Assembly (NCBI RefSeq): GCF_900129225.1
Contig: NZ_FQUG01000005.1
Location: 62,001-126,000 of the forward strand
Direction of reading: 5' to 3'
DNA: 64,000 bases
DNA from: Schwartzia succinivorans DSM 10502
Lineage (GTDB): Bacteria; Bacillota; Negativicutes; Selenomonadales; Selenomonadaceae
Made by a program: the position numbers and the translations under genes. Below the pieces are notes generated by a model. It searched no databases. It was not told the DNA's origin and worked only from the letters and a program-made list of their open reading frames with translations. Shown here one piece after another: positions 2,343 through 60,209 of this stretch (within the stretch, counting starts at the first letter, position 1; every line of letters begins with the position of its first letter).

Positions 2343-2359
2343 GCAGGAGGGGTTTGTGA

Positions 2360-4123
2360 GTGTTTGAAGGAACGGGTTGGGAGGCACAGGAACGTGTCCT
2401 CAAAAATAGTCGGGTGTTAATAGACACTTGCAGTTTAATCTATATTGAGGAACATCATCTGGATAAGGTCTGGGAAAATTTTTCGATTTTGCACAAATAT
2501 ACCAATAAACCGATTATTGTACCGGCAAGTGTGGTAAATGAGTTAGATAAGCATAGAAAGAAAAAAATATCCTCAGATATCAAGGACCGGACACTGGCAC
2601 AATACGCAGGCAAGGCAATAGACAGACTGGTTGCTATGCAGAAAGAAGATATTGTGCAGATAGCCGGGGATCCGCAGAAAAATTTTGCGGATGCAGAATT
2701 TTTTTCTGCCTTTTACGATTTAACCCAAAATACAAATGTAACGCTGATTACTCAGGATAACGCATTGGCAGAAGGCGTATTGGGAATAAGAAACAATCGG
2801 GCCTTGAAATATGTAAAGAAAATTAATGTTCGAAAAGTCAATCAGAACGGAAGACTGCAAACATTTTATTTCGATGAGATGCTTCGAAGTAAGAACCCTG
2901 ATTTTGGTCGTGGAAAACAACCTTTCACACGTCCGGAAGGGGAAAGACCGGGACATAAATTTCGCTTTTGTACCAAAACCACTGATATCCCCGATACGCA
3001 GCTGCCGCTGACTGAAAGCGTGCAAAAAGGGGAGATGCTTCATACTGATGATAAACAGGCTGTCATACTTGGCGAAATTGTAGGGAGCGGTGGAGAGGGG
3101 AGTATCTTTGACATCGGGAATAATCAGGTGGCAAAAATATATGCTCATCATCGCTTAACGAGAAGGCGTTTTGAAAAAATAAAGCTGATGATTGCCAATC
3201 CAATAAGGTGCGAGGGAATATGCTGGCCGTTGCATATGCTTTACAATGCCCGGGATGAATTTGTGGGCTATACAATGGCGCGGGCTAATGGGCATGTGTT
3301 GGACCCAAACTTGTTTAATCGCACGCTTCTGGAAGAAAAGTTTTCCGGGTGGACGCGTAGGGAAACGATAGACTTATGCATCACTATCCTTGAAAAAATC
3401 AGCTATCTGCACCAAAGAAATGTATTGTTAGGTGATATTAATGCGAAAAATATTCTCATTGTGTCGCCGCAAAAAGTATTTTTTGTGGACACGGACAGCT
3501 ATCAAATAGAGGATTTTCCTTGTCCTGTGGGAACAGAGGAATTTAAGGCACCGGAAATAAAAGCAACTCAATACAGTGAGCTGCTGAGGACATTTGGAAA
3601 CGAGTATTTCGCGATAGCGGTACTTCTCTTTAAGATTATGCTGCCGGGAAAACATCCGTATTCTCATCAAGGCGGAGGCAGTGTAAAAGAGAATATACAG
3701 AAAATGGATTTCCCTTACGCTCTAAAAGAAAAATCCAATCATAATGCTCCTGAAGGGCTTTGGAGATATATATGGAGTCATATGTCATATAAACTAAAAG
3801 AAGCTTTCTATACAACATTTCAAAAAGATGAAGAACATTGCCGGGAAAATAAACGTTACGGACCGGAGGCATGGATTGAATTGTTTAAGCACTACCGTAA
3901 CGCTTTGCCAAAGATGGCTGAAAATGATGAGCTGGCCTTGAGCTTGTTTCCTGACCGCTTAAAGAAAAATGATGGACAGTACTATAACTTCAAAAATGAT
4001 ACAAAAATTACTGAATTGCCTGATGAGGCTTTGAATAGGTCAGAGAATAAAAGCTCCACTAATTTACGTGATATACTGCTTCTTTTAGTTTGGTTATATA
4101 TTTTTTACAGGCTTATACACTGA
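2360..4123 (+). CDS. PIN domain fused to a Ser/Thr protein kinase with C-terminal membrane anchor
   Basis: This 587-residue protein starts at GTG seven bases after caggagggg. Residues about 17-150 are a PIN ribonuclease-type domain with acidic residues D22 (LIDTCSL), E61 (VVNELDKH), D110 (FADAEF) and D132 (ITQDN). Residues about 230-520 are a protein kinase of the kind found beside TerY: glycine loop GSGGEGS, lysine in QVAKIY, catalytic loop LLGDINAKNILI replacing the usual HRD, metal-binding VDTDSYQI replacing DFG, and an APE-like APEIK. A hydrophobic segment ends the protein (ILLLLVWLYIFYRL). It lies in the same operon as the vWA and PP2C genes, giving the kinase, phosphatase and vWA set known as the TerY-P triad. 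The PIN fusion is the unusual part. RNA cleavage controlled by phosphorylation is my inference. Confidence 0.85.
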   Translation: MFEGTGWEAQERVLKNSRVLIDTCSLIYIEEHHLDKVWENFSILHKYTNKPIIVPASVVNELDKHRKKKISSDIKDRTLAQYAGKAIDRLVAMQKEDIVQIAGDPQKNFADAEFFSAFYDLTQNTNVTLITQDNALAEGVLGIRNNRALKYVKKINVRKVNQNGRLQTFYFDEMLRSKNPDFGRGKQPFTRPEGERPGHKFRFCTKTTDIPDTQLPLTESVQKGEMLHTDDKQAVILGEIVGSGGEGSIFDIGNNQVAKIYAHHRLTRRRFEKIKLMIANPIRCEGICWPLHMLYNARDEFVGYTMARANGHVLDPNLFNRTLLEEKFSGWTRRETIDLCITILEKISYLHQRNVLLGDINAKNILIVSPQKVFFVDTDSYQIEDFPCPVGTEEFKAPEIKATQYSELLRTFGNEYFAIAVLLFKIMLPGKHPYSHQGGGSVKENIQKMDFPYALKEKSNHNAPEGLWRYIWSHMSYKLKEAFYTTFQKDEEHCRENKRYGPEAWIELFKHYRNALPKMAENDELALSLFPDRLKKNDGQYYNFKNDTKITELPDEALNRSENKSSTNLRDILLLLVWLYIFYRLIH

Positions 4124-45300: not shown

Positions 45301-46159
45301 CAAGTATCGCACGATGGTTACTTCCTCTTTGTTCCGTGAATATTTCGAGCAAGGTGACGAGCGGATTAAGCATTCTCTGCTTACCCAGTATCGTATGCAC
45401 TCGGATATCCAGAAAGTCATCAACCGCTTTTATGATGGGAAACTGGAAAGCGGTGTTATGGAAGACGAAAACAGGACAAAAGCCCACGGGCTAAAAGTTA
45501 CGACTGATAAAGGCGAAAGTTTCCTCCGTCCCGACAGCCATGCTTATTGGGTGGATTCCTCCAGGTTGCAAGGAAAGCTGATGGAGCAGAGTAGATATCA
45601 AGGCAGCACTTCGCTCCATAACATTTTCGAGAGGCACATCATCTTGTCTATGCTCTCAAAAATTAATGATGCGTATGCCGCCATGGGGCAATCTGGCGTA
45701 ACTGTAGGTGTGATTTCCTTCTACGGTTCCCAAGTAGGAGATCTTAGAAAAGCTGTCAAGGATATGCGTAGTCGTGGCAAACTCAAGGCATTAAAAGTTG
45801 ATGTCAATACAGTAGACCGTTTCCAAGGCAAGGAAAAGCAGATAATTATCACTAGTTTGGTTTGCAATACCAAACGTGGCAATGCCAGCCGCCATGTGGC
45901 AGCTTTTGAGCGAATTAATGTTGCTTTTTCCCGTGCGCAAAATTTGCTAATTATTGTGGGAGCCAGAGAACTCTACAGCGGTTTAGCTGTTCCTATTCCC
46001 CGCATGGACACTGGAGAGATTAGGAGTGCTCGTATTTACCAAAACATAATTGATGACATAGCACGCAACGGTGCGTTGATAGCAGGAGAAACACTAATTG
46101 CTTCAGAGGATGCACAGGCGATTATGGAAGAATACGATAAGGAGGCGAAGGAGCGGTGA
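42332..46159 (+). CDS. UPF1/DNA2-like superfamily 1 helicase
   Basis: This 1275-residue protein may start at ATG 42332 or, less strained, at 42344. An unfamiliar N-terminal region (about 1-400) precedes the helicase core. The motifs are: Walker A LIQGPPGTGKTTVIAEA (about 424-438), VLLASQSHDAVDNALDRL (Ia), a coiled-coil-rich insert (about 500-860), DEVSKATPPELLP (II, DExx), GDHRQLPPVF (III), LLTQYRMHSDI (IV), VNTVDRFQGKEKQIIITSLV (V) and NVAFSRAQNLLIIVG (VI). This is a UPF1-like SF1B enzyme that would translocate on RNA or DNA. Its stop overlaps the start of the PIN gene (4 bp), so the products are translationally coupled. The long insert is unusual. Confidence 0.9.
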   Translation: MRKNMAIDDVEYNSGISSYKEETRPLCIKTHSRPSNNRYDQLEYNKGSLLKKYPRFGMKDFVATDFFDEIIKKIFIDGIAKDTFVRNYTFDGSKSLKLAIRYKRGPQDYLSNILPDNKTLLFKGYVSGNYFIVDGVSEQYNEELLPYEVECRIARYDDESRVSGAGGNFLYDLADAAASLNEHTKQRLQEWKDYIEWRRTIVQKRMHGVRYTSVESKDGNLAFTLQFPDKDSYDVEAKWLKRGELAAYDGKEYSDEDGNFVYNEERHRWNEKFEPVGSQIRRLSKEGREVNGHYEIELVYAVPDNDEIDEMTDEEREEYVQNQLLPRYSSIGFLAPLVIKDLSLFKRLDRAVSDLQQDRDCRSPNMAMWIFDVTRARLPQPQDRQEWEKRVGDNWLNTSVADNPDQREAIFKMLEAPDLCLIQGPPGTGKTTVIAEAIYQLARQGNRVLLASQSHDAVDNALDRLANRSEIRAIRLSERDRDRDEERSKFGSSKALSTYYGTLRQAVTDRFLAQWNKNRQDYNDCERELRDIQHVTADLEYLNHKLTEQSQNLEDYRRSLSTAESTLQKMVEENSEHENTKRQYMNFKGMAERNEISGGDFYIPSAMGDVVAPLFWQLIRNAAEQGIMLASSVSEDVIRREPTLSISRIATSCGVLFALREKLSVAAQNATTDADIAKLKMQDIDEQIRKITDQLAEVDDAGIRKELKDKRNGLREEKEKLGESGAFVLSPEELTLFDEERKAKIQSAEGQAQMVQLLSNVETAYQNAIQESLSRMSEVIESYQPQDVEPLLEQVKSHKGQIKQLKEEMQRKREEIAAKEKLGETLSDKYRCERSEIESHIEAEMSRLDEEWNRDASIRQVWQGTLERFAERLGDSKTAKYDKEYHEDIYISSCNVVGITCTANMRDLDEKFPDFDVVIIDEVSKATPPELLPPLMRARKTILVGDHRQLPPVFNEYEKSYNELLEEINAETDEDDDNAAEMVLREEDLNKYRTMVTSSLFREYFEQGDERIKHSLLTQYRMHSDIQKVINRFYDGKLESGVMEDENRTKAHGLKVTTDKGESFLRPDSHAYWVDSSRLQGKLMEQSRYQGSTSLHNIFERHIILSMLSKINDAYAAMGQSGVTVGVISFYGSQVGDLRKAVKDMRSRGKLKALKVDVNTVDRFQGKEKQIIITSLVCNTKRGNASRHVAAFERINVAFSRAQNLLIIVGARELYSGLAVPIPRMDTGEIRSARIYQNIIDDIARNGALIAGETLIASEDAQAIMEEYDKEAKER

Positions 46160-48180
46160 ATTTAGGTAAAGCTAGGATAGCTTATCCCTTCGTGGAATAT
46201 TCGGTTCAAGTGACGCACCACACAGAGCGCAAGTCCACGGTGATGGAATGGATGCTTTTAGAAATCGCTCAAAAGGTCGAGTCATATCCTGATTATGCGG
46301 CAATCCCCTTGGAAAACATTCTAACATCAATTTTCTCGGTAGCGGATGGTAACATACTCCTTCGTCAAGTTCTAATAGACCTTGTGGATGTCAATGCACT
46401 GGAACAAATTCCAGGTTTTAGCGACAAAAGCGAATGGAATCAGCTTAGATGCGGTGATTTGCGGCTGACTGATGACGGTCGCCGCTTGCAGCAGGAGGGC
46501 AAACTTCCGGCAAAGTCACAAACTCAAAAATTATCTGTTGTTTATGATGTGGTCAATAATCGTCTTGTAAACAGCAGTAAAGGTATGGTGGACAACACAG
46601 TGAGTCCCAAAGCTAAAGATATCGGTGAAGGAAATATGCCTGGTTTTCCTAGTTCCTTAATCGCTTTACGAATTGAAGAATGGCAAGCGGATGGCCAAAA
46701 TGCCCCTTCGTGGCTACAACGAAACTCTCGAATCGACAATATTGTCCCGGAAGGGGATGCAAAAATAAAGTGGCAAAATATCAGCCACGAGATTTCCATT
46801 GATAGCAGAGGTAATTTGAGCCTTTTGGGTGCGCCAAATGATGAAATTGCTGAAGTCGTTCTGAAAGATACGGATTTAGGGACGATGCCAGACTATGAAT
46901 TGCCGCTAATTGACGTTGATACTCTTCTGAGCAAGCGAAAGTGTGCAATTTATGATAAGACTTCGGATACTATTGAGAGTTATGCGGCAAAAGCTAACAT
47001 CTTCGTCGTTGCTCCGCAGTTTTCTAACATCATAGATGAAAAAAATAATAAGGTATGCTTGCTGTTGGGGCAGCTGTCGTTTGGGTTCGATGCTACGGGA
47101 AAAAATACAGTAATAAGCCTCCCAGATGCTTTCCCGGAGGGGCTGTGCTATCAGGACATCAGTCGTAGCGTGTATGCCACCGCCGTTGAAGGACATATTG
47201 GCGCAGTTTCTCGTTTGATACCCTATATATACGAGGATGTGAGCGATTTCTCCGTATTCGTCATAAGTCTGGTAAAAAAGTACTATATGCTGGATCGACG
47301 TATGTTGAAGCTTTTGAATCTTGTCGGAGAGGAGAAATATCGAGAGTTTTATACTGCCGATTACATACGGGATTTGCTAAATTCGGCAGAGATACAACAA
47401 CTTACCCCAATAGATAAAATATTGGACAGGCTCTTGAAGCTCGATGTCAAATTGCAAAATGTGTTGGTGGATGTGCCAATCTCCGCAAGCTCTGAAACTA
47501 TCCGTTCTGCACTTTTAGGCAAGGATGTAGAAATTCTTGGGGATGTTCGCGAGTGGACGGCGCAATGGCGAGAGGCATTGGAATCTCTCAAAACTAAGAC
47601 GGACGTGGATGTGAAATCCATGGATTGGCAAGGTACCAACTTTGGTCTATCACTGGAGCGTATGGAGCAAGCGGCAGATGCCGTGGCCGTTTTCTACGAC
47701 GATTCCGCAAGTCGCTATAGTAAGGTGTATGTTTTTGATACTTGTTCTCTGATGCACTATCCCGATGTGCTGGACGATTTTGTGAGCAATAAGGCTTTAG
47801 TAATCATCCCAAAGCAGGTCTTAGTAGAATTGGACGGTCTTAAGACAGCTGATGATGAAAATAGGCGATACCAAGCGCGGCAAGCCATACGAAAAATCCA
47901 TGAATACGGCGATGAGCCTTGGTTGAAGCAAAACGAGGATAATTATCTGGAACTTCTTTCGGATAGTTTCAGGGAATCAGGTATAAAAGATTTTTACATC
48001 CTGTCCGTGGCGGTCAAATATCGCGTAAAGAACCCTGTCATGGTGACGGACGATGAGAACTTCCAGAATTTCGCCCAATCGGAAGGAGTGGAGACAATCA
48101 CGGCGCATAATCTCCATGAAAAACTGACAAATGAGGTTTCTTCCAAGGGCAAGGGAAAAAATAAAAAGAAGAGGAAATAG
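46156..48180 (+). CDS. PIN-domain protein with large N-terminal region
   Basis: The start is GTG at 46156 (gaaggagcgGTGA), overlapping the helicase stop. The 674-residue product has a large N-terminal part (about 1-510) I do not recognise and a C-terminal PIN nuclease domain (about 516-650): VYVFDTCSLMHYP (first Asp), KQVLVELDGLK (Glu), GIKDFYILSVAVKY (Asp) and VMVTDDENFQNF (Asp), followed by a Lys-rich tail. The DTCSL motif matches that of the PIN-kinase at 2360. It is likely an RNA endonuclease working with the adjacent helicase. Confidence 0.82.
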   Translation: MNLGKARIAYPFVEYSVQVTHHTERKSTVMEWMLLEIAQKVESYPDYAAIPLENILTSIFSVADGNILLRQVLIDLVDVNALEQIPGFSDKSEWNQLRCGDLRLTDDGRRLQQEGKLPAKSQTQKLSVVYDVVNNRLVNSSKGMVDNTVSPKAKDIGEGNMPGFPSSLIALRIEEWQADGQNAPSWLQRNSRIDNIVPEGDAKIKWQNISHEISIDSRGNLSLLGAPNDEIAEVVLKDTDLGTMPDYELPLIDVDTLLSKRKCAIYDKTSDTIESYAAKANIFVVAPQFSNIIDEKNNKVCLLLGQLSFGFDATGKNTVISLPDAFPEGLCYQDISRSVYATAVEGHIGAVSRLIPYIYEDVSDFSVFVISLVKKYYMLDRRMLKLLNLVGEEKYREFYTADYIRDLLNSAEIQQLTPIDKILDRLLKLDVKLQNVLVDVPISASSETIRSALLGKDVEILGDVREWTAQWREALESLKTKTDVDVKSMDWQGTNFGLSLERMEQAADAVAVFYDDSASRYSKVYVFDTCSLMHYPDVLDDFVSNKALVIIPKQVLVELDGLKTADDENRRYQARQAIRKIHEYGDEPWLKQNEDNYLELLSDSFRESGIKDFYILSVAVKYRVKNPVMVTDDENFQNFAQSEGVETITAHNLHEKLTNEVSSKGKGKNKKKRK

Positions 48181-48191
48181 GAGGTGGCTAC

Positions 48192-49307
48192 ATGAGTCAA
48201 GAAGCAGAGCTTGTATTTGCCTTGGAGCAGAGAAGACGGGAGGAACTTTTCAGAGCGCGAGTCAGCAATAAGACAAGAGAATTTTATATGCGCTACCAGG
48301 ATCAATATAACGACATGTGTTCCCAAGGCTACCGTGATTATATCCCTGAGGAAATGAGTCGTTTGGAACATGATTTGGATACCATCGGAAGCCTGCTTTC
48401 AAGCAATCCGGTGGCTGCCAGAGAGGTCAGTCAAGAGGTAGGCAGCTACATCCACAGCCTGTGGGGACTTGGCAGTGAGGCTCGGCAAGTTTTTCAAGAA
48501 TCAGCGCGTATTGCTCGTCTTGAGGCCAAGCGTGAAAAAAAGGCGGCGCAAAATTCAGTAATGTCCCGGTATTATGATGTAATCGGCAGTCTGGATTCTA
48601 TAGTGGCTAATTTTGCTGCGGCTGATTTGAACGACATCAAGAATGCCATTTCATCCGGTACTGTTGCCACTGCGCAAGATGTTGAAACAAAATTGGCGAT
48701 GGTTATTAAGAAGGCGAAAACAGAAGCAGCTAATTGGAAAGCGCAGAAGCAAAAGGAGCAAGCTAAACAAGCAGTAAACGAGCAGATAGAAGATGTAAAG
48801 AAGTCTATAGTAGCCGAGAAATTTGAAGATAGTTCCAAATCAAAGGCCCTACTGGATAAATTGGAAGAAATTAAATCCAAGGCAGTTGCGGGCACTGTCA
48901 GCGTCAAGGAGGTTCAAGAGCAGATTCAAGCCGTGACAGAAGAAACAGATGAAACCTTGGTTGGTGAAGAAGTGCGTCGTGAAACGGTCAAGGCCGTTTA
49001 TAAATGGTTTAACGACCATGACTTCACCCTCAGTAAACCGAAGCTGATTGACGGTGCTGTGGTCATAACGGCGCAAAGGCCATCAGGCAACAAAGCTCAA
49101 TTCAAGCTGACACTAGATAATAAGATGTGGTATCGTTTGGATGGATACGAGGGACAAAGCTGTTTGAAGGACATTTCGTCAGCAAAGGCAGATTGGGAGT
49201 CAGTCTATGGGATCAAACTATCGGATGAAGTTGTCAAGTGGCAGAATCCTGACCGTATTTTGCGGCGCCAAGGACAAACGGAATCCAACATAGGAGGGAA
49301 AATGTAA
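48192..49307 (+). CDS. Coiled-coil protein of the helicase/AAA+ operon
   Basis: This 371-residue protein starts at ATG behind ggaggtggctac. A long helical region (about 100-270) is rich in Ala, Lys and Glu (REKKAAQNSVM, KKAKTEAANWKAQKQKEQAK) and is probably coiled coil. The C-terminal part (about 275-371) is a small alpha/beta domain (AVYKWFNDHDFTLSKPKLI, VVITAQRPSGNKAQFKLTLD). No enzyme motif is visible. Its stop overlaps the AAA+ ATPase start by one base. It may link the helicase/PIN module to the AAA+ ring. Confidence 0.6.
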   Translation: MSQEAELVFALEQRRREELFRARVSNKTREFYMRYQDQYNDMCSQGYRDYIPEEMSRLEHDLDTIGSLLSSNPVAAREVSQEVGSYIHSLWGLGSEARQVFQESARIARLEAKREKKAAQNSVMSRYYDVIGSLDSIVANFAAADLNDIKNAISSGTVATAQDVETKLAMVIKKAKTEAANWKAQKQKEQAKQAVNEQIEDVKKSIVAEKFEDSSKSKALLDKLEEIKSKAVAGTVSVKEVQEQIQAVTEETDETLVGEEVRRETVKAVYKWFNDHDFTLSKPKLIDGAVVITAQRPSGNKAQFKLTLDNKMWYRLDGYEGQSCLKDISSAKADWESVYGIKLSDEVVKWQNPDRILRRQGQTESNIGGKM

Positions 49308-51145
49308 TGAGCGATATGTGGCTTGAACACCTTGAGCGGGAGATGAAACTTCGTGGAGCCGTGATTCTCTTTGGCAATACCAATGACATTATCCTTAATC
49401 CTCAGAAGGCTGGGCAGTATACTTCTGTGGTGGATTGTGTCCGGGACATAGCTTTTAAGAGCGGTTACGAGCGTGTAATTATATGGAATCGAGCGGAGGG
49501 GGGCATTTCTTGGGAACGTGGAGCATCTTATTCCTCTGGCCTTGAAGGTACGGAAGTCGAGGAGCCAGAGGGCGGTGACGAATACAATATGGGTCCTGGA
49601 GGCGATGAGCATCGGGCAGGTACAAAAAAATACGCTGATCCTAAAGAGTTTTTTCCCTGGCTTCGGTCATTGCTGGAAAATAAAAGTGGCGGCACAGCGG
49701 CCATCGTGGATTACTCAGATTATCTTTTCGGGGATGGGCGTAGTCTATCGGACGAAGAGCGCAATAATATAACCAACATGATGATTGCCATTGCCAAAAG
49801 CCAGGATTACGGCCTCAATTTCGTGGAGAACAATGGTAATTTACTGGTGCTCATTGCTAAGACCACGGCTATGCTCCCGCCTTCCGTCTATGTGGACAAT
49901 CCCTTGGTGGCGACAATCAACGTCCCCCTGCCGGCAAGAGATGAACGAGCGAAGTATGTGGATAAGGACATCAATCTTCTGAAGTTATCACCAGGTATAG
50001 AGGATAAAAGCGTCAAGGATAATTTTATTGACGCTCTTGATGGCTTCAGTCTGAAAAATATCGCCCAAATTATCAAGCTATCCAATCAAGCGCCGGAACG
50101 TATGAATTTCGAGAAACTCATAAACCTTTATCGCTACGGAGAAAAGAAAAGTCCCTGGGAAGAGTTGTCCTACGAGAAACTCAAAACTGCCAAGGAAACT
50201 TTGGGACAGAGAGTCAAGGGACAAGACGAGGCTGTACAAAAAGTACGGGATGTTATTATCCGTGCCTATACAGGATTTGCAGGGCTTCAACATTCCGCAA
50301 AGCAAAAGAAACCCAAGGGAGCACTCTTCTTTGTGGGACCCACCGGTGTGGGCAAAACGGAACTGGCAAAGTCGCTGGCAGAATTTATCTTTGGTGATGA
50401 AAGCGCATACCGCAGGTTTGACATGAGCGAATACGCTCATGAGCAAAGTGACCAGCGTTTGGTTGGCGCGCCTCCTGGTTACGTTGGTTATGAGAAAGGG
50501 GGCGAGCTTACCAATGCCGTCAAAGAAAAGCCCTTCTGCGTCTTGCTCTTTGATGAGATTGAAAAGGCTCATGGACGTATCATGGACAAGTTTCTGCAAA
50601 TTTTAGAGGACGGGCGCCTAACTGATGGCAAAGGTGAAACGGTCTATTTTTCCGAGACATTTATCATCTTTACTTCGAATATCGGTGCAGCTGGAGCAGA
50701 TATTGCTTTGAATGCCGAGCAAACACGACAATACTTTATCAGTGAAGTAAAAAAACACTTTGTTGAAACTCTAAAACGCCCAGAGATTCTAAATCGTATT
50801 GGCGATGCCAACATTGTGCCATTCAATTTTATCCAGAATGATGAAGTGCTTGTAGCTATTGGGAAATCCAAATTTGCCCCCATAAAATCCTTTATCAAGG
50901 AGCGTTACAAGGCAGATATTCGATTTAATGACGAAGAGGCCGTGTTTGCAGCATTGGGGAGGAGCGCAGACAAAGCAAATGGTGGACGTGGCATGTTGAA
51001 CGTCATGGAGCAGAAACTTATCAACCCATTGTCGGATTTTGTATTCGAGAAAATAGAGAGCCTTGCGCGTGGCGGAAGGACAATTCAAGTTGATATCGAC
51101 GAAACCCCGAGTGGGGAAGTCGAGCTTGATTTTCATCTGGACTAG
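49307..51145 (+). CDS. ClpB/ClpA-D2-like AAA+ ATPase with a diverged N-terminal AAA-like half
   Basis: This 612-residue protein's N-terminal half (about 1-275) resembles an AAA+ domain that has lost Walker A: LRGAVILFGNTNDIIL lacks GxxGxGK. The C-terminal half is a functional ClpA/B D2-type module: KGQDEAVQKVRDVI, Walker A GPTGVGKTELAKSL (about 345), pore loop GAPPGYVGYEKGG, Walker B CVLLFDEIEKAH, TSNIGAAG and RPEILNRIGD with the arginine finger region. It lacks the ClpB N-domain and M-domain. It probably forms a hexameric ATPase that unfolds or remodels a partner, perhaps the helicase/PIN complex. Confidence 0.87.
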   Translation: MSDMWLEHLEREMKLRGAVILFGNTNDIILNPQKAGQYTSVVDCVRDIAFKSGYERVIIWNRAEGGISWERGASYSSGLEGTEVEEPEGGDEYNMGPGGDEHRAGTKKYADPKEFFPWLRSLLENKSGGTAAIVDYSDYLFGDGRSLSDEERNNITNMMIAIAKSQDYGLNFVENNGNLLVLIAKTTAMLPPSVYVDNPLVATINVPLPARDERAKYVDKDINLLKLSPGIEDKSVKDNFIDALDGFSLKNIAQIIKLSNQAPERMNFEKLINLYRYGEKKSPWEELSYEKLKTAKETLGQRVKGQDEAVQKVRDVIIRAYTGFAGLQHSAKQKKPKGALFFVGPTGVGKTELAKSLAEFIFGDESAYRRFDMSEYAHEQSDQRLVGAPPGYVGYEKGGELTNAVKEKPFCVLLFDEIEKAHGRIMDKFLQILEDGRLTDGKGETVYFSETFIIFTSNIGAAGADIALNAEQTRQYFISEVKKHFVETLKRPEILNRIGDANIVPFNFIQNDEVLVAIGKSKFAPIKSFIKERYKADIRFNDEEAVFAALGRSADKANGGRGMLNVMEQKLINPLSDFVFEKIESLARGGRTIQVDIDETPSGEVELDFHLD

Positions 51146-51150
51146 ATGTT

Positions 51151-51723
51151 ATGGCGTACTTGAATTTAGCGGCGATTCGAACATGTACCGAGGCCGAGGG
51201 GCCAGGCAAACGTTTCGCCATATGGAGCCAGGGGTGCCTGCGTCGCTGCCCAGGTTGTTGTAATCCTCATATGCAGCCAATGGAGCGTAAGCACCTCGTA
51301 AAAGTTGATAAATTGATGGAACTGATTCTGAAGAGCAAGGCAGAGGAAGACATTGAGGGTGTGTCTTTTATAGGTGGCGAGCCGGTACTGCAAGCAGAAG
51401 GCTTTGCTGAACTTGCTCAGTATTGCCAAAAAGTTGGGTTGTCAGTATTGCTTTTTACTGGATACTACTACGAAGACTTATTGGCAATGGAGGATGACGA
51501 TATTGATAGACTGCTAAGAAATACTGATATTTTGGTTGATGGTGAATTTATTGAATCGTTACGTGATCAAGAGCGTGATTGGGTTGGATCTGAAAATCAG
51601 CACGTTATATTTTTGAGCGACCGCTATAATGCTGGGATAGAATTTGAGCATGGTGTACATAACACGGAGATACGGATATCGGATGGTGGCGTTGGGATAA
51701 ACGGATGGCCGTTAGAGATATAA
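51151..51723 (+). CDS. NrdG/PflA-like radical SAM activating protein
   Basis: This 190-residue protein has CLRRCPGCCNP, so C29, C33 and C36 (CxxxCxxC) bind the 4Fe-4S cluster that cleaves SAM. The flanking GPGKRFAIWSQG and VSFIGGEPVLQAEGF (GGEP) are as in NrdG and other activating enzymes. It starts five bases after the AAA+ stop, making it the fifth gene of the operon. Glycyl-radical enzymes are not present in the window, so the target is unknown. Its presence at the end of a helicase/PIN/AAA+ operon is unusual and suggests radical-based modification or activation of a partner. Confidence 0.85.
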   Translation: MAYLNLAAIRTCTEAEGPGKRFAIWSQGCLRRCPGCCNPHMQPMERKHLVKVDKLMELILKSKAEEDIEGVSFIGGEPVLQAEGFAELAQYCQKVGLSVLLFTGYYYEDLLAMEDDDIDRLLRNTDILVDGEFIESLRDQERDWVGSENQHVIFLSDRYNAGIEFEHGVHNTEIRISDGGVGINGWPLEI

Positions 51724-51839: not shown

Positions 51840-51868
51840 GTTCTGGATGATTAGAGGAGGAGTTTAAA

Positions 51869-51976
51869 ATGATGGAAAAAGAAAACATCAAGGCAGAGGA
51901 TATTCAAGAGGAAAACCGTACGGATATGGAATTGGAAAGCATCCTTAATATGTGCTCTTGGGGCGAATTTAACTAA
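51869..51976 (+). CDS. Candidate RiPP precursor peptide
   Basis: The SD agaggagga lies seven bases before ATG 51869. The 35-residue peptide has an acidic/polar leader (MMEKENIKAEDIQEE) and ends with NMCSWGEFN. The single Cys and Trp plus the Glu, Phe and Asn at the tip look like a modified core; radical-SAM enzymes often link Trp or Phe side chains to neighbouring residues in such cores. Three radical-SAM genes follow in the same direction. No homology was checked. The role is inferred from size, SD and context only. Confidence 0.5.
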   Translation: MMEKENIKAEDIQEENRTDMELESILNMCSWGEFN

Positions 51977-52219
51977 TTATTGGTTGAAGGATAAACAGGT
52001 ATAATCACTTTGTAGGCTGATATGGTGCTTAGGTTTGGTGTCATGCTTGCATAACGAACCACAATATTGTGCCTGACAAGACCTTATTTGACTCTAAATC
52101 AAAGCACCAATATCTCCTTAAATTTAACTTTGAAAGTAAATGCCTGATTTTTTTCTTAATCTGTGTCGTATTAAATTCAAGTATGCTCAACTATCTAGAA
52201 AAAGAGAGGAGAATACAAT
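51977..52219 (+). other. AT-rich spacer upstream of the first radical-SAM gene
   Basis: The 243-bp gap has no gene that I trust. It holds a possible promoter (ttgaaggataaacaggtataat region at 51982-52004) and ends with the SD agagaggag for the TTG start at 52220. A hairpin was not clear. Confidence 0.3.
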
Positions 52220-53215
52220 TTGCAGGTTTATATTTTGCTTACGCAAAAATGTAATCTTCATTGCTCTATGTGTATACGCGGTAAACAAACTGGGAAAGAT
52301 ATCTCTTTTTCTGCCATTAAATCTATAACTGAACGAGGAGATTTCTATGAACAGGATGTAATTCTGACTGGGGGAGAACCAACATATTACGACAAACTTA
52401 CCGATGTTGCAAAATTAATTAGTCAATCGGCAAATCTTGTTATTGTCACTACAAATGGGACAAATGCTAATGCGATAAAAGACTTGCGAGAGATCAAAAA
52501 TTTAATGGTTCAAGTATCTCTTGATGGAGATCAAATAACACATAATAATATTCGAGGCTCAGGAACATTTGAAAGGGTTAAAAAGACAATCGATGTATTG
52601 GAAAAATATGATATGGCATATACTGTAGCTTCGGTTGTTAATAAATCAAATACACATGGCGTGTTTTGTTTAGGCAAAATGTTAGAAAAACAGCCTAAAA
52701 TGAAATATTGGAGTGTTTCTTATGAAATGCCATTTGGAAGCTCCGGTATTGATAAATTAATGACGGCGGCAGAATGGAATAATTTTGTAGATAATTTGAT
52801 AGACAATGTCAGAGTGCGAATAAAAATAAAAAAATTATTCCCTTTGGATCTTTATGAAAAACACTTGGATATAATAAGCAGGATACCTCTGAAAGAAAGA
52901 AGCTTTAATTGTGGTAGCGGTAAAGATAAAATATATGTATATCCCGATTTATCGGTATATCCTTGTACTTGCTTAGAGGATTTTTGTGTAGGAAATTTGG
53001 ACAATCAATCATTGAAACAGATATTAGAAGGGGATATGATAAAGGTTTTTCAAAATTATACAGTAAATCCTGGTACCATATGTTCATCTTGCTCCTATTT
53101 AGATTTATGTCGCGGTGGCTGTATAGGTATGTCGGTACATTATGCCGGTGGATTGGGAAATGGAGATATACGTTGCCCGTATATGAAAACCAATTCAAAT
53201 AAGGAATGTGAATGA
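52220..53215 (+). CDS. Radical SAM/SPASM peptide-modifying enzyme
   Basis: The TTG start is eight bases after agagaggag (331 residues). The radical SAM cluster motif is QKCNLHCSMCIRG, followed by VILTGGEPTYYDK (GGEP) and VTTNGTNANA. The C-terminal SPASM-type cysteines are CGSGKDKIYVYPD, YPCTCLEDFC, and CSSCSYLDLCRGGC, which would hold one or two auxiliary 4Fe-4S clusters. SPASM radical-SAM enzymes typically modify peptides or activate sulfatases. It is 243 bp downstream of the candidate precursor and overlaps the next gene by 4 bp. Composition is strongly AT-rich. Confidence 0.9.
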   Translation: MQVYILLTQKCNLHCSMCIRGKQTGKDISFSAIKSITERGDFYEQDVILTGGEPTYYDKLTDVAKLISQSANLVIVTTNGTNANAIKDLREIKNLMVQVSLDGDQITHNNIRGSGTFERVKKTIDVLEKYDMAYTVASVVNKSNTHGVFCLGKMLEKQPKMKYWSVSYEMPFGSSGIDKLMTAAEWNNFVDNLIDNVRVRIKIKKLFPLDLYEKHLDIISRIPLKERSFNCGSGKDKIYVYPDLSVYPCTCLEDFCVGNLDNQSLKQILEGDMIKVFQNYTVNPGTICSSCSYLDLCRGGCIGMSVHYAGGLGNGDIRCPYMKTNSNKECE

Positions 53216-54105
53216 AAAATATTTTTTATTTTAATATAACCTATGGTTGCAATAGCAACTGTGTGTTCTGTTATTCTCATAACACAAAACACGACGGTAT
53301 AAGCCATCATGATTTATCCGTAGAAACGATGATGTCTTATTTGAAAAAAAACAATATAAAAGAGTATGATCGCATAATTATCAATGGTGGAGAACCATTG
53401 TTGCATCCAGACATAATAAGGATGATTCAAAACCTTAAAGATTTCAATTGCGAAATTCTGATATATACTAACGGTCGTTTGCTGGAAAAATTGCCACTCA
53501 ATATTTTTAACGACAATTTTAGGATTATTATTCCTTGGCATGGAGCTGAAAAAGCACATGACATGGTAACTGGTATAAACGGTAGCTACCATGAAACCAT
53601 GCGGGGAATTAATCATATGCTAAATGGTTGTGCACATATAGAACTCAAAATTATTGTTAATCGGAATATGGTTTCTAAAAGGGATATTGAATCTTCTATC
53701 GTTGCATTGGATCATATTCCAATTAAATCATTTCATTCTGTTCATTTAACTAAAGTTGACGATACCATCATATCTAAACTCAACAAATATCCCCATATAA
53801 GTCATGCAGATGCAGCTATGCCAACATTGAATTTTTTTAATTATTGCGCATCACGGGTGAATTCAATCAAAATATTTGATACCTGTGTAGCAAGTATGCC
53901 ATTGCCTACAAATGAATTACCGGCACTAAAGGAAGAATATGCAGTAATTTTTAAAGACTGGGATCACAATTGGCAAATTCCGTTAAAAGAAAAACATCCT
54001 CATTGCTTAATGAACTGCTCACATAAGAGTTATTGCATATCGGCAGTAAATCATTATACTGCTCTCGAGTATAAAAGTGGTAATTGGCGAGAATTTTGGG
54101 AGTGA
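53212..54105 (+). CDS. Radical SAM protein 2 of the peptide locus
   Basis: This 297-residue protein starts at ATG overlapping the previous stop (GAATGAA). The cluster motif is TYGCNSNCVFCYSH, then IINGGEPLLHPDI and IYTNGRLLE. The C-terminus has only scattered cysteines (FDTCVAS, HCLMNCSHKSYCIS), so an auxiliary cluster is possible but not canonical. It may carry out a second modification or work as a partner of the first enzyme. AT-rich like its neighbours. Confidence 0.85.
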   Translation: MKNIFYFNITYGCNSNCVFCYSHNTKHDGISHHDLSVETMMSYLKKNNIKEYDRIIINGGEPLLHPDIIRMIQNLKDFNCEILIYTNGRLLEKLPLNIFNDNFRIIIPWHGAEKAHDMVTGINGSYHETMRGINHMLNGCAHIELKIIVNRNMVSKRDIESSIVALDHIPIKSFHSVHLTKVDDTIISKLNKYPHISHADAAMPTLNFFNYCASRVNSIKIFDTCVASMPLPTNELPALKEEYAVIFKDWDHNWQIPLKEKHPHCLMNCSHKSYCISAVNHYTALEYKSGNWREFWE

Positions 54106-54110
54106 TTACA

Positions 54111-55229
54111 ATGGAAGAAAACAATGAGATTGCCATAACAATTAAACCCACAATGTCGTGCAATATGAGATGTCGCCATTGTTTTAATGCTGATTTACGA
54201 AAGCAAAGAGATTCTCTTCCATTGTCAACTGCGGTGCGATTCTTGGAATTAGCTGCGGATTTTTCTCGAGATGTAAAAGTGACGCTTCATGGGGGTGAAC
54301 CATCTCTGATGGGAGCTGCATACTATCGTGAATTATTCCGAAACGAACAGCGAATTGCTGCTGAGAAGGGCGTAGTATTTGCTAATCGCTTTACTACAAA
54401 CGCATTGCTATTAAAAGGCGAACTATTAGACGTTTTGTTGGCTAATGATGCACGATTAAAAATATCATTCGATGGGCCATTCAATGATGATCTTCGTGAA
54501 AAAACTGAAATAGTAAAGAAAAACATTTCAGAGGCAAGAGTGCGCGGAGCGAAAATTATAATACTTTGTACGCTTGCTCGAAATGCCAGCAACCATCTGC
54601 TGGAATTGTATAAATGGTTTAACGAATGGGGTCTAGATATAAAATTACTTCCAATTGAGCCGAGAGGTTTCGCATTGTTCAATAACAATCTTTTGCTGCA
54701 GGAAGATGAGTTTGCTAATGCATTAAAAACCGCATACAACTATTGGTTACACGACACTAAGTGCCAAATATCTTGTACAACATTTGAAGATTTTGCAATG
54801 ATAAGATCCACGCAACAGTACAAACCTTTTTGGTTCAGAAGAGAAATTGCATTAAATCCCGATGGGCACATCCATCCATTTGGTAGACCAAATGATATCC
54901 GCTATGATTTGGGCAGACCTGAAGATATAAACAGCTTGGAGGATTGTTTTCAATCCGATGTATATAAGAACTTGATGAATTTTTTGAAGGGAAAAAGAGC
55001 AGTTTATTGCGAAGCATGCCCGGCTTGCGGCTCATGTAACGGGGTCTGTCTTTTTATGGGGTATATGTATACTGATAGTGAAGCTTTGCTTCAGCGAAGC
55101 TGTCGTATATCGAGAAAGATCTTTGATATTGCATTAGAATCTAACGATATTGCATACAATGATTGGCTCAGTGGAAAGCAAAAGTCGCTCAATCCTCGTG
55201 CAATACAAGCATTGCTCTATGACCGTTAA
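54111..55229 (+). CDS. Radical SAM/SPASM enzyme 3 of the peptide locus
   Basis: I use ATG 54111 (SD gggag), 372 residues, five bases after the previous stop. Cluster motif SCNMRCRHCFNAD, then VTLHGGEPSLMG. SPASM-type tail: CEACPACGSCNGVCLF and a further Cys in LLQRSC. The sequence is similar to the anaerobic sulfatase-maturing/peptide-modifying branch. It is less AT-rich than the two genes before it. The three radical-SAM genes together suggest that one peptide receives several modifications. Confidence 0.88.
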   Translation: MEENNEIAITIKPTMSCNMRCRHCFNADLRKQRDSLPLSTAVRFLELAADFSRDVKVTLHGGEPSLMGAAYYRELFRNEQRIAAEKGVVFANRFTTNALLLKGELLDVLLANDARLKISFDGPFNDDLREKTEIVKKNISEARVRGAKIIILCTLARNASNHLLELYKWFNEWGLDIKLLPIEPRGFALFNNNLLLQEDEFANALKTAYNYWLHDTKCQISCTTFEDFAMIRSTQQYKPFWFRREIALNPDGHIHPFGRPNDIRYDLGRPEDINSLEDCFQSDVYKNLMNFLKGKRAVYCEACPACGSCNGVCLFMGYMYTDSEALLQRSCRISRKIFDIALESNDIAYNDWLSGKQKSLNPRAIQALLYDR

Positions 55230-55413
55230 CATAAAGGCAGTGTTGTTATGCAGATTGTTAATCACATTGAATTGCGGGATGTAAAAGATATTTATGATAT
55301 GAGATTTTAATTGAGCTGTTTAATGTTACCAGACATAGCTATTGCCTCCGTGTATGTTTTGTGTGGTAACTTAATTTTACCGATGGCAGTAGACTATGGC
55401 TATTTCTTTATGA
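55230..55413 (+). other. Gene-poor stretch after the radical-SAM genes
   Basis: This stretch contains one 20-codon frame (55248-55310) without a good SD and otherwise shows no support for a gene. Together with the helicase remnant that follows it accounts for the 394-bp gap to 55624. Confidence 0.4.
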
Positions 55414-55575
55414 AACGGAATTTGCGAAAAATATTATACGTTATTCAAAGCCGTTCTTCTTATTGATGCTCAAAAGAGTAAGATTGATGATGCTCTGCAG
55501 CAAAGAATAATGTATGTGGGGTGTTCAAGAGCCAATACTTATTTGCTTATGGCTATCATGGACGATATTGATTAG
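55414..55575 (+). pseudogene. Remnant of a superfamily 1 helicase C-terminus
   Basis: Read in one frame, the bases 55447-55575 give KAVLLIDAQKSKIDDALQQR and then IMYVGCSRANTYLLMAIMDD before a TAG. The YVGCSRANTYL block is motif VI of UvrD/Pif1-like SF1 helicases (YVGLTRA..L), and the short LFKAVLLID before it resembles motif V. No start codon or upstream domain exists, so it is the tail of a lost gene. Its ancestor is not the UPF1-like helicase upstream, whose motif VI reads NVAFSRAQN. Confidence 0.65.
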
Positions 55576-55623
55576 GTGATGAGATTTAGGCGGGAAATTC
55601 ACTGACGCAGGGGGTGTCGGGAA

Positions 55624-56232: not shown

Positions 56233-56784
56233 ATGTCTGGAAAAGAGAAAATGCTGTCCAAGGCTGAAATAGATGAGTATATCCGTCTGCACTATAAGCC
56301 GGAGAAAAAACTTGGAAAGAGCTTTTTGGGGATTCTGAAAGGGACGGGGGCTTGTCTTGGAGGGGCAATATATACCGGAGCTCAGAGGCCTTTAGGGTTA
56401 GAGGATTTGCTTGACAGCGTCCGAAATAAGATAGAGCTGACCTTCTCGGAAAAGCTCATGGAGCTTATCAAGGAGAAGGGGCGGAAACCCGCTGACATCT
56501 ATAAGAAGGCGGATATCAACAAGGATCTATTTTCAAAAATCAAGGCGAATAAGTATTATCGGCCGACAAAGGAAACGGCATTGGCTTTTGCTATCGCGCT
56601 GCATCTAAATCTGAAGGAAACTGCTGACCTCATCGGACGGGCAGGGTATGCTCTGTCAAGCAGTATCAAGAGCGACCTCATTGTGCAGTGTTATATTGAA
56701 GCCAAGGTGTACAATATTATGTCTGTCAATGACTCGCTGGTCGAATACGGATTCAAGCCGCTCACTGGCCGACGGTTTGGATAA
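56233..56784 (+). CDS. HTH protein, copy 1 of a duplicated pair
   Basis: This 183-residue protein starts at ATG after aagaaggagaatt. The N-terminal segment is MSGKEKMLSKAEIDEYIRLH; a variable linker follows; the conserved C-terminal half (about 85-183) has helices typical of a lambda-repressor-like domain: LTFSEKLMELIKEKGRKPAD, DINKDLFSKIKANKYYRP and ETALAFAIALHLNLKETADL. It is a paralogue of the gene at 59064. Such domains occur beside vWA or macro-domain genes in Firmicutes. DNA binding is inferred. A terminator follows. Confidence 0.7.
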   Translation: MSGKEKMLSKAEIDEYIRLHYKPEKKLGKSFLGILKGTGACLGGAIYTGAQRPLGLEDLLDSVRNKIELTFSEKLMELIKEKGRKPADIYKKADINKDLFSKIKANKYYRPTKETALAFAIALHLNLKETADLIGRAGYALSSSIKSDLIVQCYIEAKVYNIMSVNDSLVEYGFKPLTGRRFG

Positions 56785-56887: not shown

Positions 56888-57289
56888 ATGAATAATGAGG
56901 TTATGGAAGCGGAGTTCAGGGATATTGAGGCTGAGAAGTATACGGATGAGTATTCGGAGGTAGGGCTTTGGGAAAATATAAAGGATGAGGCAGCCTCTAT
57001 CGGTCTCAGCCTGATTTACTAGGCGCTGCAGCTTTATTATGTTGCGCAGTCGCCCAATTGCCCTATGAAGGTCAAGGCGGGCATTTACGGCGCGCTGGGG
57101 TATTTGATTTCTCCCTTTGATTTTATTCCGGATTTCATGCCGGCAGTGGGATACACTGATGACGCGGCGGCGATAGGGGCTGCCCTGCTTTTGGCACAGA
57201 TGTATATTACCGACGATGTCAAAATGAAGGCTGAGAGCAAAATAAAGGATATTTTCGGGGCAAAGGTTTTGGAACGGCTTGAGAAATGA
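56888..57289 (+). pseudogene. YkvA/DUF1232 membrane-associated gene with an internal amber stop
   Basis: ATG 56888 (SD ggaggcg) opens a frame of 44 codons, then TAG (57020-57022), then the same frame continues to the stop at 57289. Its paralogue at 58652 has a lysine (AAG) at that position, so one base change AAG to TAG explains the break. The rest reads through intact, including GYLISPFDFIPDFMPAVGYT, the DUF1232 core. Either the gene is dead or it is rescued by readthrough or reinitiation at ATG 57065. The frame is well conserved on both sides, so the mutation is recent. Confidence 0.8.
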
Positions 57290-57820: not shown

Positions 57821-57881
57821 CGAAAATATGGATAGGCGGTAAAATGAATACAGAATCTTATATGTGCAGGAGGCAGATAGA

Positions 57882-58637
57882 ATGGAATCTTTTGTAAAGC
57901 CGAGTGTAAAGGTGATTGGTGTAGGAGAGCCGGGTTCGGAGGCGTTGTCGAGGCTGCGTGGATGCGGATGGGATGGTGTTGATTTCCTGAAGCTGGCTGA
58001 GGATGATCAGGTTGATTTGCAGGAGGTGTTTAGGGATACCGATATGACAATTATCCTGGCGGATATTCAGAATCTGAAGGATGCGGCGGTTACGCTTGCT
58101 GCTGCGGAGTGTGCCAAGGGTATGGACGTGCTGACTGTGGTCATGACTTCAGCAGGGGATGTGCCGAAGGCTTTGGCTGATGCCGCGGATACTGTAACGA
58201 TTTTGCCGTCAGATGAGGAAGGCAGTGAAGCAGGTACTGTGGATTCTTTTGCGGCAGGCGTTCATATGATTTTGGATATGCTGTCGGAGCGTTCGCTTGT
58301 GTCCATGAGCTTCGATGACTTTAGGAGCTGTTTGTCAAATGTGGGTGTAACGGCTATGGCTTCTGGTCAGGCGGCAGGGAAGAATGTAATCATGGAGGCA
58401 GCAAAGAAGGCCGCTGCTTTGCTGGGAGAAAATGCAAATCTTTCCAAGGCGAGAACCATGCTGATGCATGTGATTGGTTCAGGAGATAATATCGGTGTTT
58501 TTGATATAGGCTCTGCCGGTGCTTTCCTGAGCTGGCAGGTTCATCCTGATGCGGATATTCTCTGGGCTGTTACCGCGGATAAGAGTATGGGGGACAATGT
58601 TGTCGTAACTCTGCTGGGAAGCAGAGTTGCGATTTGA
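57882..58637 (+). CDS. Diverged FtsZ-like tubulin-fold protein lacking the GTPase signature
   Basis: ATG 57882 follows caggaggca (251 residues). The N-terminus VKVIGVGEPGSEALSRLR matches FtsZ's IKVIGVGGGGSNA strand and T1 loop. The second half aligns with the FtsZ C-terminal core: LVSMSFDDFRSCLSNVG (FtsZ NVDFADVRTVMSN), ASGQAAGKNVIMEAAKKAA and ADILWAVTADKSMGDNVVVT (FtsZ AVIDESLGDEVRVT). The tubulin signature GGGTGTG is missing (the segment reads IILADIQNLKDAA), and in the T7 region two of the three polar residues (N, D) are changed to Ser. So it probably does not hydrolyse GTP but could still assemble. There is no C-terminal FtsA/ZipA-binding tail. It is coupled to the DUF1232 gene 14 bp downstream. 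Confidence 0.78.
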   Translation: MESFVKPSVKVIGVGEPGSEALSRLRGCGWDGVDFLKLAEDDQVDLQEVFRDTDMTIILADIQNLKDAAVTLAAAECAKGMDVLTVVMTSAGDVPKALADAADTVTILPSDEEGSEAGTVDSFAAGVHMILDMLSERSLVSMSFDDFRSCLSNVGVTAMASGQAAGKNVIMEAAKKAAALLGENANLSKARTMLMHVIGSGDNIGVFDIGSAGAFLSWQVHPDADILWAVTADKSMGDNVVVTLLGSRVAI

Positions 58638-58651
58638 TGGGAGGAATAATT

Positions 58652-59056
58652 ATGAGGGAAAATGTTATTGAAGCTGAGTTTAATGATATTGATGTTGAAA
58701 AGTACACGGATGAATACTCAGAGGAGGGGCTTTGGGATAAAATCAGGGACAATGTTGCTTCCATTGGTATAGCGCTGATATACAAGGCATTGCAGCTTTA
58801 CTATGTGGCGCAGTCTCCAAATTGCCCAGTGAAGGTCAAGGCCGGTATTTATGGTGCGCTTGGATATTTGATTTCGCCGTTTGATTTTATTCCGGATTTC
58901 ATGCCGGCCGTAGGATATACTGATGATGCGGCAGCAATCGGTGTTGCGCTGATTTTGGCACAGATGTATATTAATGATGATATAAAAATGAAGGCCGAAG
59001 GGAAAATAAAGGATATTTTCGGAGTAAAGGCATTGGAAAAGTTAGAGAAAGAGTGA
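58652..59056 (+). CDS. YkvA-like DUF1232 protein (intact copy)
   Basis: ATG 58652 lies six bases after gggagga (134 residues); the reading frame from 58634 only adds residues without SD. The protein contains an acidic N-terminal part (NVIEAEFNDIDVEKYTDEYS) and the DUF1232 core (KAGIYGALGYLISPFDFIPD, FMPAVGYTDDAAAIGVALIL), which is a membrane-associated helical hairpin. It is about 75 percent identical by eye to the pseudogene at 56888. Function of DUF1232 is unknown; the position between the FtsZ-like gene and the HTH gene is shared by neither copy's surroundings alone. Confidence 0.82.
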   Translation: MRENVIEAEFNDIDVEKYTDEYSEEGLWDKIRDNVASIGIALIYKALQLYYVAQSPNCPVKVKAGIYGALGYLISPFDFIPDFMPAVGYTDDAAAIGVALILAQMYINDDIKMKAEGKIKDIFGVKALEKLEKE

Positions 59057-59063
59057 CAGGAAA

Positions 59064-59624
59064 ATGAGCGGAAAAAGGCGGATGTTAACAAAGTCGGATA
59101 TAGACGAGTATATACGTCAGCATTATAAGCCTGAGGGGGAAAGCTCTTCAGGCTTACTTGATATTTTAACAGGGCCTAGAAAACACCTCCCCGGAATGAG
59201 GGATTTTTCATCTTATTCCGATGATAGCAGTACTCTTCGGCGCTTACTGGATGGAATAAAAAACCGTATTGAGCTGACCTTCTCGGAAAAGCTCATGGAG
59301 CTTATCAAGGAAAAAGGGAAAAGACCATCTGAGGTTTATAACAACGCGGATGTCGATAAGGCTGTTTTTTCAAAAATCAAGGCCAATAAGTACTACCACC
59401 CTACGAAGGATACTGCACTGGCATTCGCTATAGCTCTGGAGCTGAATCTGAAGGAAACGGCGGATCTTATCGGCCGCACAGGATACGCTCTTTCGGCCAG
59501 TTCGGAAAGAGATCTTATTGTAAGCTGTTTTATCGAAGCTGGTGTATATGATATTATGAAAATCAATGAAAAATTACATGATTATGGTTTTCTTCCGCTT
59601 ACCTGTAAACAAGGGTACAGATAA
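59064..59624 (+). CDS. HTH protein, copy 2 of a duplicated pair
   Basis: This 186-residue protein starts at ATG seven bases after the DUF1232 stop (SD acagga). It shares MLTKSDIDEYIRQHYKPE at the N-terminus and the C-terminal helix-turn-helix region (RIELTFSEKLMELIKEKGKR, FSKIKANKYYHPTKDTALAF) with the 56233 protein; the linker in between (about 28-75) differs strongly. DNA binding is inferred. A GGGTTGCC-type terminator follows at 59632. Confidence 0.7.
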   Translation: MSGKRRMLTKSDIDEYIRQHYKPEGESSSGLLDILTGPRKHLPGMRDFSSYSDDSSTLRRLLDGIKNRIELTFSEKLMELIKEKGKRPSEVYNNADVDKAVFSKIKANKYYHPTKDTALAFAIALELNLKETADLIGRTGYALSASSERDLIVSCFIEAGVYDIMKINEKLHDYGFLPLTCKQGYR

Positions 59625-59732: not shown

Positions 59733-60209
59733 ATGAGCTGGTGTAAAAATGGAATGCTTTTGGCTGCAGGTGGAGTTGCGGGGCTGGCTATCGCGGCATG
59801 GCTTGAGTCCGAGGGGAGTTTTGTAAGCGCACCGAAGCGCGAAATGACCAATGCCGACGGGATGGAGATTCTGCTTGAAAAGATTCGGAGCGAAGCCGAG
59901 TGGGCTATGGATGAGTGCACTACTGATGAGCAGCGTGAAAAGGTGTACGAGGAGGTAAAAGCATCCGTTGGTAAGCTGCAGGCGGCACTTGAGCGAAGCG
60001 GTGAGAAAATCGTTACGGAGCTCAAAGGACAGTATGAGCGTACCTGTAGTGACGAAACTGATGAGGAAATGGATGGAGATCAGATGCTGAGGTACAGAAG
60101 TATGATTGAAAAGCTTCTCAAGGACATGGATACGTCGAAAAAGGCAAAGAGCGAGCAGGCTTCTGATGAAATCAGCGGAATTTTGGCGGCTTCCGGATTG
60201 ACGAAATGA
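59733..60209 (+). CDS. Small membrane-anchored helical protein
   Basis: ATG 59733 follows aaggaggaatttatt (158 residues). Residues about 7-23 (GMLLAAGGVAGLAIAAWL) form one hydrophobic segment, and the rest is charged helix (SEAEWAMDECTTDEQREKVY, ERSGEKIVTELKGQYERT), likely coiled coil. I do not recognise a family. It lies 18 bp upstream of a 55-residue gene with a strong SD. Confidence 0.6.
   Translation: MSWCKNGMLLAAGGVAGLAIAAWLESEGSFVSAPKREMTNADGMEILLEKIRSEAEWAMDECTTDEQREKVYEEVKASVGKLQAALERSGEKIVTELKGQYERTCSDETDEEMDGDQMLRYRSMIEKLLKDMDTSKKAKSEQASDEISGILAASGLTK

Follow-up and report, generated by a model that had tools for sequence, protein, structure and literature searches.

Within a 64,000-nucleotide stretch of the Schwartzia succinivorans DSM 10502 genome (contig NZ_FQUG01000005.1, positions 62,001 to 126,000; hereafter the window) a gene of 35 codons is followed by three different radical S-adenosylmethionine (radical-SAM) genes, here designated A, B and C. 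As judged from the sequences of six such loci, the short open reading frame (ORF) belongs with high confidence to a precursor family of ribosomally synthesized and post-translationally modified peptides (RiPPs) that goes together with the three enzymes. The cassette as a whole is best explained, on a modest balance of probability, as an undescribed radical-SAM RiPP cluster in which the trio would act on a W-x-E precursor and form a Trp-Glu cyclophane. The trio with its precursor was not described in the literature searched, in which papers on triceptides and the radical-SAM atlas were covered incompletely, and absence from print is not established. It is unusual that three different radical-SAM enzymes travel with one precursor of 26-62 residues, and the combination spans Negativicutes-like bacteria, other Clostridia/Lachnospiraceae and Bacteroidota. 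On this comparison the peptide product would be a rare one that has spread horizontally among distant gut bacteria.

Six cassettes were compared, namely the one in the window and L006, L007, L008, L009 (on the same contig as L003 and L031, and called L031 hereafter) and L010 (Table 1). In each of them a single short ORF immediately precedes the first enzyme gene, and the motif N-x3-[CM]-x3-S-[ILV]-x5-W-x-E runs ungapped through 6/6 precursors. Six-frame translation of the six loci gave 235,368 residues, among which both the full motif and the shorter S[ILV]x5WxE turned up six times each, in every case within the precursors. Hidden Markov models (HMMs) were built in a leave-one-out manner, in which the left-out peptide played no part in its own model; the left-out peptide ranked first in all six loci, with E-values of 9.5e-6, 3.5e-5, 3.5e-8, 2.7e-5 and 2.7e-8 for five of them, and the second-best segment of any locus came at an E-value of 0.12 or worse. 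Ungapped comparison of the window peptide with the second peptide from the same bacterial family gave 14 identical residues out of 35, and none of 20,000 shuffles was as good. Moreover, in the 18-residue block shared by the window and L006 five of the eight identical residues use different codons, and nucleotide identity by codon position amounts to 11/14/4 of 18, as expected for selection on the protein; other pairs were less clear, and L031 was left out of this comparison.

The Shine-Dalgarno sequence of the window gene lies 8 nt 5′ of its ATG, and AGGAGG was also found at the L006 and L003 peptides and GGAGG at L010. For L031 the start was taken as the ATG after AGGAGG at position 1253 of L003; use of an upstream GTG would give 46 residues. 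The window peptide is single-copy in its own genome and matched none of the NCBIfam models. A first-pass annotation of the window had described the 35-residue ORF, its Shine-Dalgarno sequence and the three radical-SAM genes, all of which were found as described, and had suggested a search for similar peptides upstream of homologous enzymes; such a conserved peptide was present in all six loci carrying the trio.

The enzyme genes lie on the same strand as the precursor gene, and their products match Pfam PF04055 at E-values of 4e-12 to 9e-15. Since the stop codon of A overlaps the ATG of B (ATGA, 53212-53215) and C begins 5 nt past the stop of B, the three are very probably co-transcribed. Homologues that begin with MQ[IVL]Y back TTG 52220 as the start of A, and C starts at ATG 54111, not at the upstream TTG 54084. 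In A the cysteines C231, C249, C251, C288, C291, C297, C301 and C319 are invariant in 6/6 loci and form the full SPASM set; its closest solved relatives by profile are SkfB (1.3e-29) and anSME. Enzyme B has no SPASM match, but its C265, C269 and C275 are likewise invariant (6/6) and possibly bind an auxiliary cluster, and the radical-SAM core of its structural model (predicted local distance difference test score, pLDDT, 83.3) resembles SkfB and BlsE. Enzyme C can be aligned with anSMEcpe along its length; the structural model of C (pLDDT 80.5, predicted template modelling score 0.82) gave template modelling scores of 0.73-0.77 to anSMEcpe and also resembles CteB and ChlB. C300, C303, C309 and C331 of C are invariant in 6/6 loci; cysteines opposite the first auxiliary-cluster motif of anSME are lacking in the four loci with the order A-B-C and present in the two C-B-A-order proteins. 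We take these cysteine positions to belong to the anSME clusters AuxI and AuxII. The first-pass annotation had given SPASM cysteines to two of the three proteins, which is only partly right: A has the full set, C a partial one, and B the three C-terminal cysteines. A viperin-like defence role was considered and rejected, as the PADLOC pVip matches of B (3e-16) and C (3.8e-11) are read as generic radical-SAM core similarity and B reached 52.6 of 180 bits on the NCBIfam viperin model.

The best profile matches of C are peptide or protein maturases, namely DynA (dynobactin maturase, NF041298; 100.5 bits), TIGR04083 (91.9) and anSME (73.9). DynA is also the best NCBIfam model for A (76.8 bits); dynobactin, unlike the system described here, is made with one enzyme. 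The best model of B is HxsC (72.1 bits), a partner enzyme of the two-enzyme His-Xaa-Ser system (HxsB/HxsC), but the cut-off of 267.9 was missed, the peptide lacks His-Xaa-Ser repeats and, in the window, is without any His. PQQ and mycofactocin (PqqA/PqqE, MftA/MftC) likewise start from a short precursor in which residues are joined by a SPASM radical-SAM enzyme, but different residues are concerned, three radical-SAM enzymes are present here, A scored 58.5 of 265 bits on the mycofactocin maturase model and no PqqA or MftA match was found for the precursor. Several radical-SAM enzymes per precursor also occur in Cluster 115 (3 to 5 enzymes), whose precursor, in the portion of PMC9062424 available, differs in having at least three conserved Cys and an Asp-Cys motif; a peptidase and a hydrolase also belong to that cluster.

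Apart from Trp and the Glu two positions after it, no core residue is kept in 6/6 peptides. The first-pass annotation had thought of crosslinks at the Trp or the Phe of the core; the Trp holds, together with Glu, while Phe34 is replaced by V, N, N, G and G in the other loci and the core Cys moves (S+5, S+5, S+6 and S+4 in four peptides) and is absent from the cores of L031 and L010. Four peptides end two residues past Glu, and the C-B-A peptides go on with G-E-E-[TG]-W-G-G. In all six peptides W-x-E fits the aromatic-x-X3 core motif of triceptides, whose enzymes (XncB, OscB/GrrM, FxsB, YxdB, HaaB) are likewise SPASM radical-SAM proteins acting on a core with an aromatic residue and an i+2 partner; as far as the available portion of PMC11002830 goes, they link Trp to Cβ of residue i+2 (Arg, Asn, Asp). 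Distant relatives of C also adjoin ORFs rich in aromatic-x-[DN], with 17 [HYFW]-x-[DN] in the precursor-like ORF of L004 (shuffle mean 7.1; 0/2000 shuffles) and 20 in that of L005 (shuffle mean 10.2; 3/2000 shuffles), and the i+1 control was not enriched (8 vs 7.2 and 14 vs 10.2, respectively). Unlike triceptide systems, the cassette has three enzymes, Glu at i+2, scores far below the curated cut-offs and, in 4/6 loci, a very short precursor without repeats. From the invariance of Trp and Glu, the aromatic-x-[DN] motifs near C relatives and the i, i+2 links of triceptides, a Trp-x-Glu cyclophane made by C is favoured, and as a feature of the product it is proposed tentatively, at slightly less than an even chance.

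We infer from these comparisons that the peptide is the substrate of the trio and that labour is divided among the enzymes. A region around N16-x3-[C/M]-x3-S24-[ILV] of the short precursor would serve for recognition, and the C-terminal core with its invariant Trp and Glu (i, i+2) would be modified jointly by the three radical-SAM enzymes. C as the best candidate, or possibly A, would close a three-residue cyclophane by bonding the ring of Trp to the side chain of Glu. Further modifications nearby might come from A and B, either on the backbone or at the variable Cys/Trp found between S+4 and S+6. Host proteins would have to remove the leader and export the product, because none for these tasks are encoded alongside the cassette. 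If the W-x-E cyclophane is true, Glu would extend the i+2 partner set given in the available portion of PMC11002830. With its unvarying trio, its two gene orders and its ungapped motif, the family offers a clean system for studying division of labour among radical enzymes on a short peptide, and the locus, small at about 3.4 kb, can be tested directly in E. coli.

Two of the C relatives, L004 and L005, were rejected as family members, since their neighbouring ORFs are without W-x-E and no A or B was found in the flanks read. In L004 a 94-residue His/Asp/Tyr-rich ORF (1170-1454, + strand) lies directly 5′ of a C-like SPASM radical-SAM gene (1480-2574; genome G069, from the family of the window's bacterium) and looks like another triceptide-type precursor. 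In L005 a protein of 385 residues (2641-3798, - strand) with repeats such as GCNTHSDSGCNTHSN adjoins two C-like/anSME-like radical-SAM genes (43-1212 and 1435-2619, - strand) and is possibly a large repeat RiPP substrate.

Several points weigh against a W-x-E RiPP modified by the trio. The precursor motif was defined after the peptides had been seen, the L010 peptide reached a leave-one-out E-value of only 0.12, and its ORF extends to 62 residues and overlaps C. None of A, B and C reached the curated cut-off of an NCBIfam maturase model; on DynA the cut-off of 450 was missed by A and by C at its 100.5 bits, and on the curated cyclophane-forming families C scored 42.9 of 310 (GrrM/OscB), 37.7 of 370 (FxsB) and 53.7 of 425 (AmcB). 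As A and C match the same maturase models, either might be the one that acts on W-x-E, and the window C is without the first auxiliary-cluster cysteines. Glu is not among the i+2 partners given in the available portion of PMC11002830. No RiPP recognition element or PqqD was seen at the locus and, in agreement with the first-pass annotation, the scan of a part of the neighbours gave no family of transporters or proteases.

A thioether RiPP of the ranthipeptide or sactipeptide type, in which a SPASM enzyme would join the core Cys to Glu or a neighbour (e.g. C29-S-W-G-E33), accords with the exact C-x3-E in the window and L006, with the PapB scores of A and C (75.3 and 62.1 bits) and with SkfB as the best solved relative of A; it is nevertheless unlikely, as the core Cys shifts and is missing from two cores and the PapB cut-off of 340 was not reached. 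Rather less likely still is a pathway to a small molecule or cofactor in the manner of PQQ and mycofactocin, with the crosslinked W-x-E excised and processed further. The very short precursors, 4/6 of which end just past Glu, would suit it, as would the LysA-like pyridoxal phosphate (PLP)-dependent decarboxylase directly after A in 2/2 C-B-A loci, which would act on a released bis-amino acid (the L031 copy stops at 204 residues), and the HprK-related and geranylgeranyl-reductase-like proteins downstream in L006. The core around W-x-E is variable, however, unlike that of a cofactor precursor, the PqqA/MftA match and a dedicated protease are missing, and the accessory genes are not common to all loci. 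As a long shot, a compact, multiply crosslinked W-x-E unit could be excised as a peptide-derived signal or cofactor of a new class resembling PQQ, with the LysA-like enzyme of the C-B-A loci processing the Trp-Glu bis-amino acid as its homologue does diaminopimelate.

It is very improbable that the short ORF encodes no substrate but a leader peptide that regulates the enzyme operon (an attenuator). Hairpins do follow the ORF in several loci (z-scores of -5.40 in L007, -2.48 in L003 and -2.47 in L008), but those of L006 (-1.36) and the window are weak, 10/200 shuffles being equally good in the latter, and L010 has neither a gap nor a hairpin between peptide and C. Hairpins after the precursor gene are usual in RiPP operons; the one in the window, whose sequence was not found again elsewhere in its own genome, is possibly a partial terminator or attenuator. 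The block is kept at the protein level across phyla despite codon changes, and the A-B-C-order peptides have a single Trp codon, except L006 with two. Short ORFs are common, but a chance ORF next to three unrelated radical-SAM genes is hardly credible given the 6/6 conservation, the leave-one-out HMMs, the motif count and the shuffle test.

The cassette is rare in the genomes searched. With C alone as query, a second cassette was found in the family of the window's bacterium (G063; identity of 33%); relatives of C at E<=1e-30 occurred in 3/200 genomes, the third of which, G069, is not a cassette. A single-sequence scan of GTDB contigs with C gave no relative, and a scan with a two-row alignment gave 25 loci, five of them real cassettes (L006 to L010) and the remaining 20 (L011-L030; 22-33% identity, mostly partial) classed as generic radical-SAM proteins from the table alone. 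As the contig scan requires exact short peptide patterns, six loci are a lower bound. A, B and C are all present in each of the five other loci, with identities to the window enzymes of 39-47%, 23-43% and 32-45%, respectively; four loci including the window have the order A-B-C and two C-B-A. Profile A3 gave 511-551 bits for the six cassette genomes and 78.5 bits for the next best match, and found only the query genome in the order of L007 (1/393 genomes), the family of L006 (1/397), the order of L010 (1/248) and the family of L008 (1/120), and in the window's family 2/151 genomes, its own and G063. Query A1 found 2/398 genomes of the phylum, the second of which (G501, L005) is not a cassette. 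Plasmid and phage records had no match to C, plasmids none to A, and IMG/VR none to A or C; with B, IMG/VR gave three weak radical-SAM matches (28-35% identity).

In small FastTree trees, one for each enzyme, L031 and L010 grouped together with support of 1.000 in all three, and L007 with L008 with support of 0.904 (A), 0.999 (C) and only 0.214 (B). The window and L031 fall into different clades although their hosts belong to one bacterial family, which makes horizontal transfer of the cassette likely on the evidence of these trees. The L007 copy, at least, lies in or near an integrative element, since its flanks hold a resolvase, a tyrosine integrase, an excisionase-like helix-turn-helix (HTH) protein and AbiL-type defence genes. 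The GC content of 35.5% in the cassette, against 45.6% in the window, is consistent with recent acquisition. Downstream of C in L006 follow an unknown 241-residue protein, the HprK-related protein and the geranylgeranyl-reductase-like FAD protein; accessory genes are unlike between loci, so downstream processing would differ by locus. A fourth, separate radical-SAM gene (1714-3021, 435 residues) lies 5′ of the cassette in L008, with a DUF4097 protein in between.

Table 1. Features of the window and the further loci with the enzyme trio (aa, amino acids; MAG, metagenome-assembled genome).
Feature	Position in the window	Strand	Description	Basis
Precursor gene	51869..51976	+	35 codons, 35 aa; encodes MMEKENIKAEDIQEENRTDMELESILNMCSWGEFN	ORF list, alignment, leave-one-out HMM, shuffle test
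Shine-Dalgarno of precursor gene	51855..51860	+	AGGAGG	read in sequence
Conserved peptide block	within 51869..51976	+	N16-x3-M-x3-S24-I-x5-W31-x-E33, then F-N-stop	
Hairpin	52015..52116 (approximate)	+	long, imperfect, between precursor and A	folding z -1.84
Enzyme A	52220..53215	+	331 aa, radical SAM with complete SPASM cysteine set	
Enzyme B	53212..54105	+	297 aa, radical-SAM core, C-terminal C-x3-C-x5-C	
Enzyme C	54111..55229	+	372 aa, anSME/DynA-like, SPASM with second auxiliary-cluster cysteines only	
L006			Lachnospiraceae MAG; order A-B-C; precursor 33 aa	
L007			Bacteroides sp. 224 (Bacteroidota); order A-B-C; precursor 26 aa	
L008			Candidatus Physcocola equi (Bacteroidota); order A-B-C; precursor 26 aa	
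L003/L031 (= L009)			uncultured Veillonellaceae RUG043 (G063), window's bacterial family; order C-B-A; precursor 44 aa	
L010			Clostridia MAG; order C-B-A; precursor 62 aa	

Upstream of the cassette lies an operon (42332-51723) with an AAA_11/AAA_12 helicase (PADLOC MkoA-like, 1.2e-103), a PIN-domain protein, a coiled-coil protein, a ClpA-like ATPase and, as a putative member, an NrdG-like radical-SAM protein. This operon may serve in defence or stress and have no connection with the RiPP. The first-pass annotation had noted a change in base composition here and left open whether the two belong together; the break is real (45.0% GC in the helicase operon), and the flank ORF lists of the five other loci contain no helicase-operon neighbours, which supports a separate cassette. 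The NrdG-like protein (51151-51723) was rejected as a fourth enzyme, as the ORF lists of the five further cassettes show no obvious counterpart. Its relatives at about 40% identity occurred in 5/79 other genomes searched, and their 1.5 kb flanks held none of the remaining helicase-operon genes.

Past the cassette, an apparently degraded coding sequence at about 55240-55620 has an end resembling the C-terminus of UvrD helicase; the remnant at about 55455-55575 reached a Pfam E-value of 0.21 only, and the likeness is an impression and no firm assignment. The neighbour at 59733-60209 gave a sub-threshold match to the conjugation protein TrbI_Ftype (18.1 of 27.4). Additionally, two similar units of a DUF1232-like and an HTH protein are present (57065-57289 with 56233-56784, and 58634-59056 with 59064-59624), and an FtsZ-C-like protein (57864-58637) is located between them.

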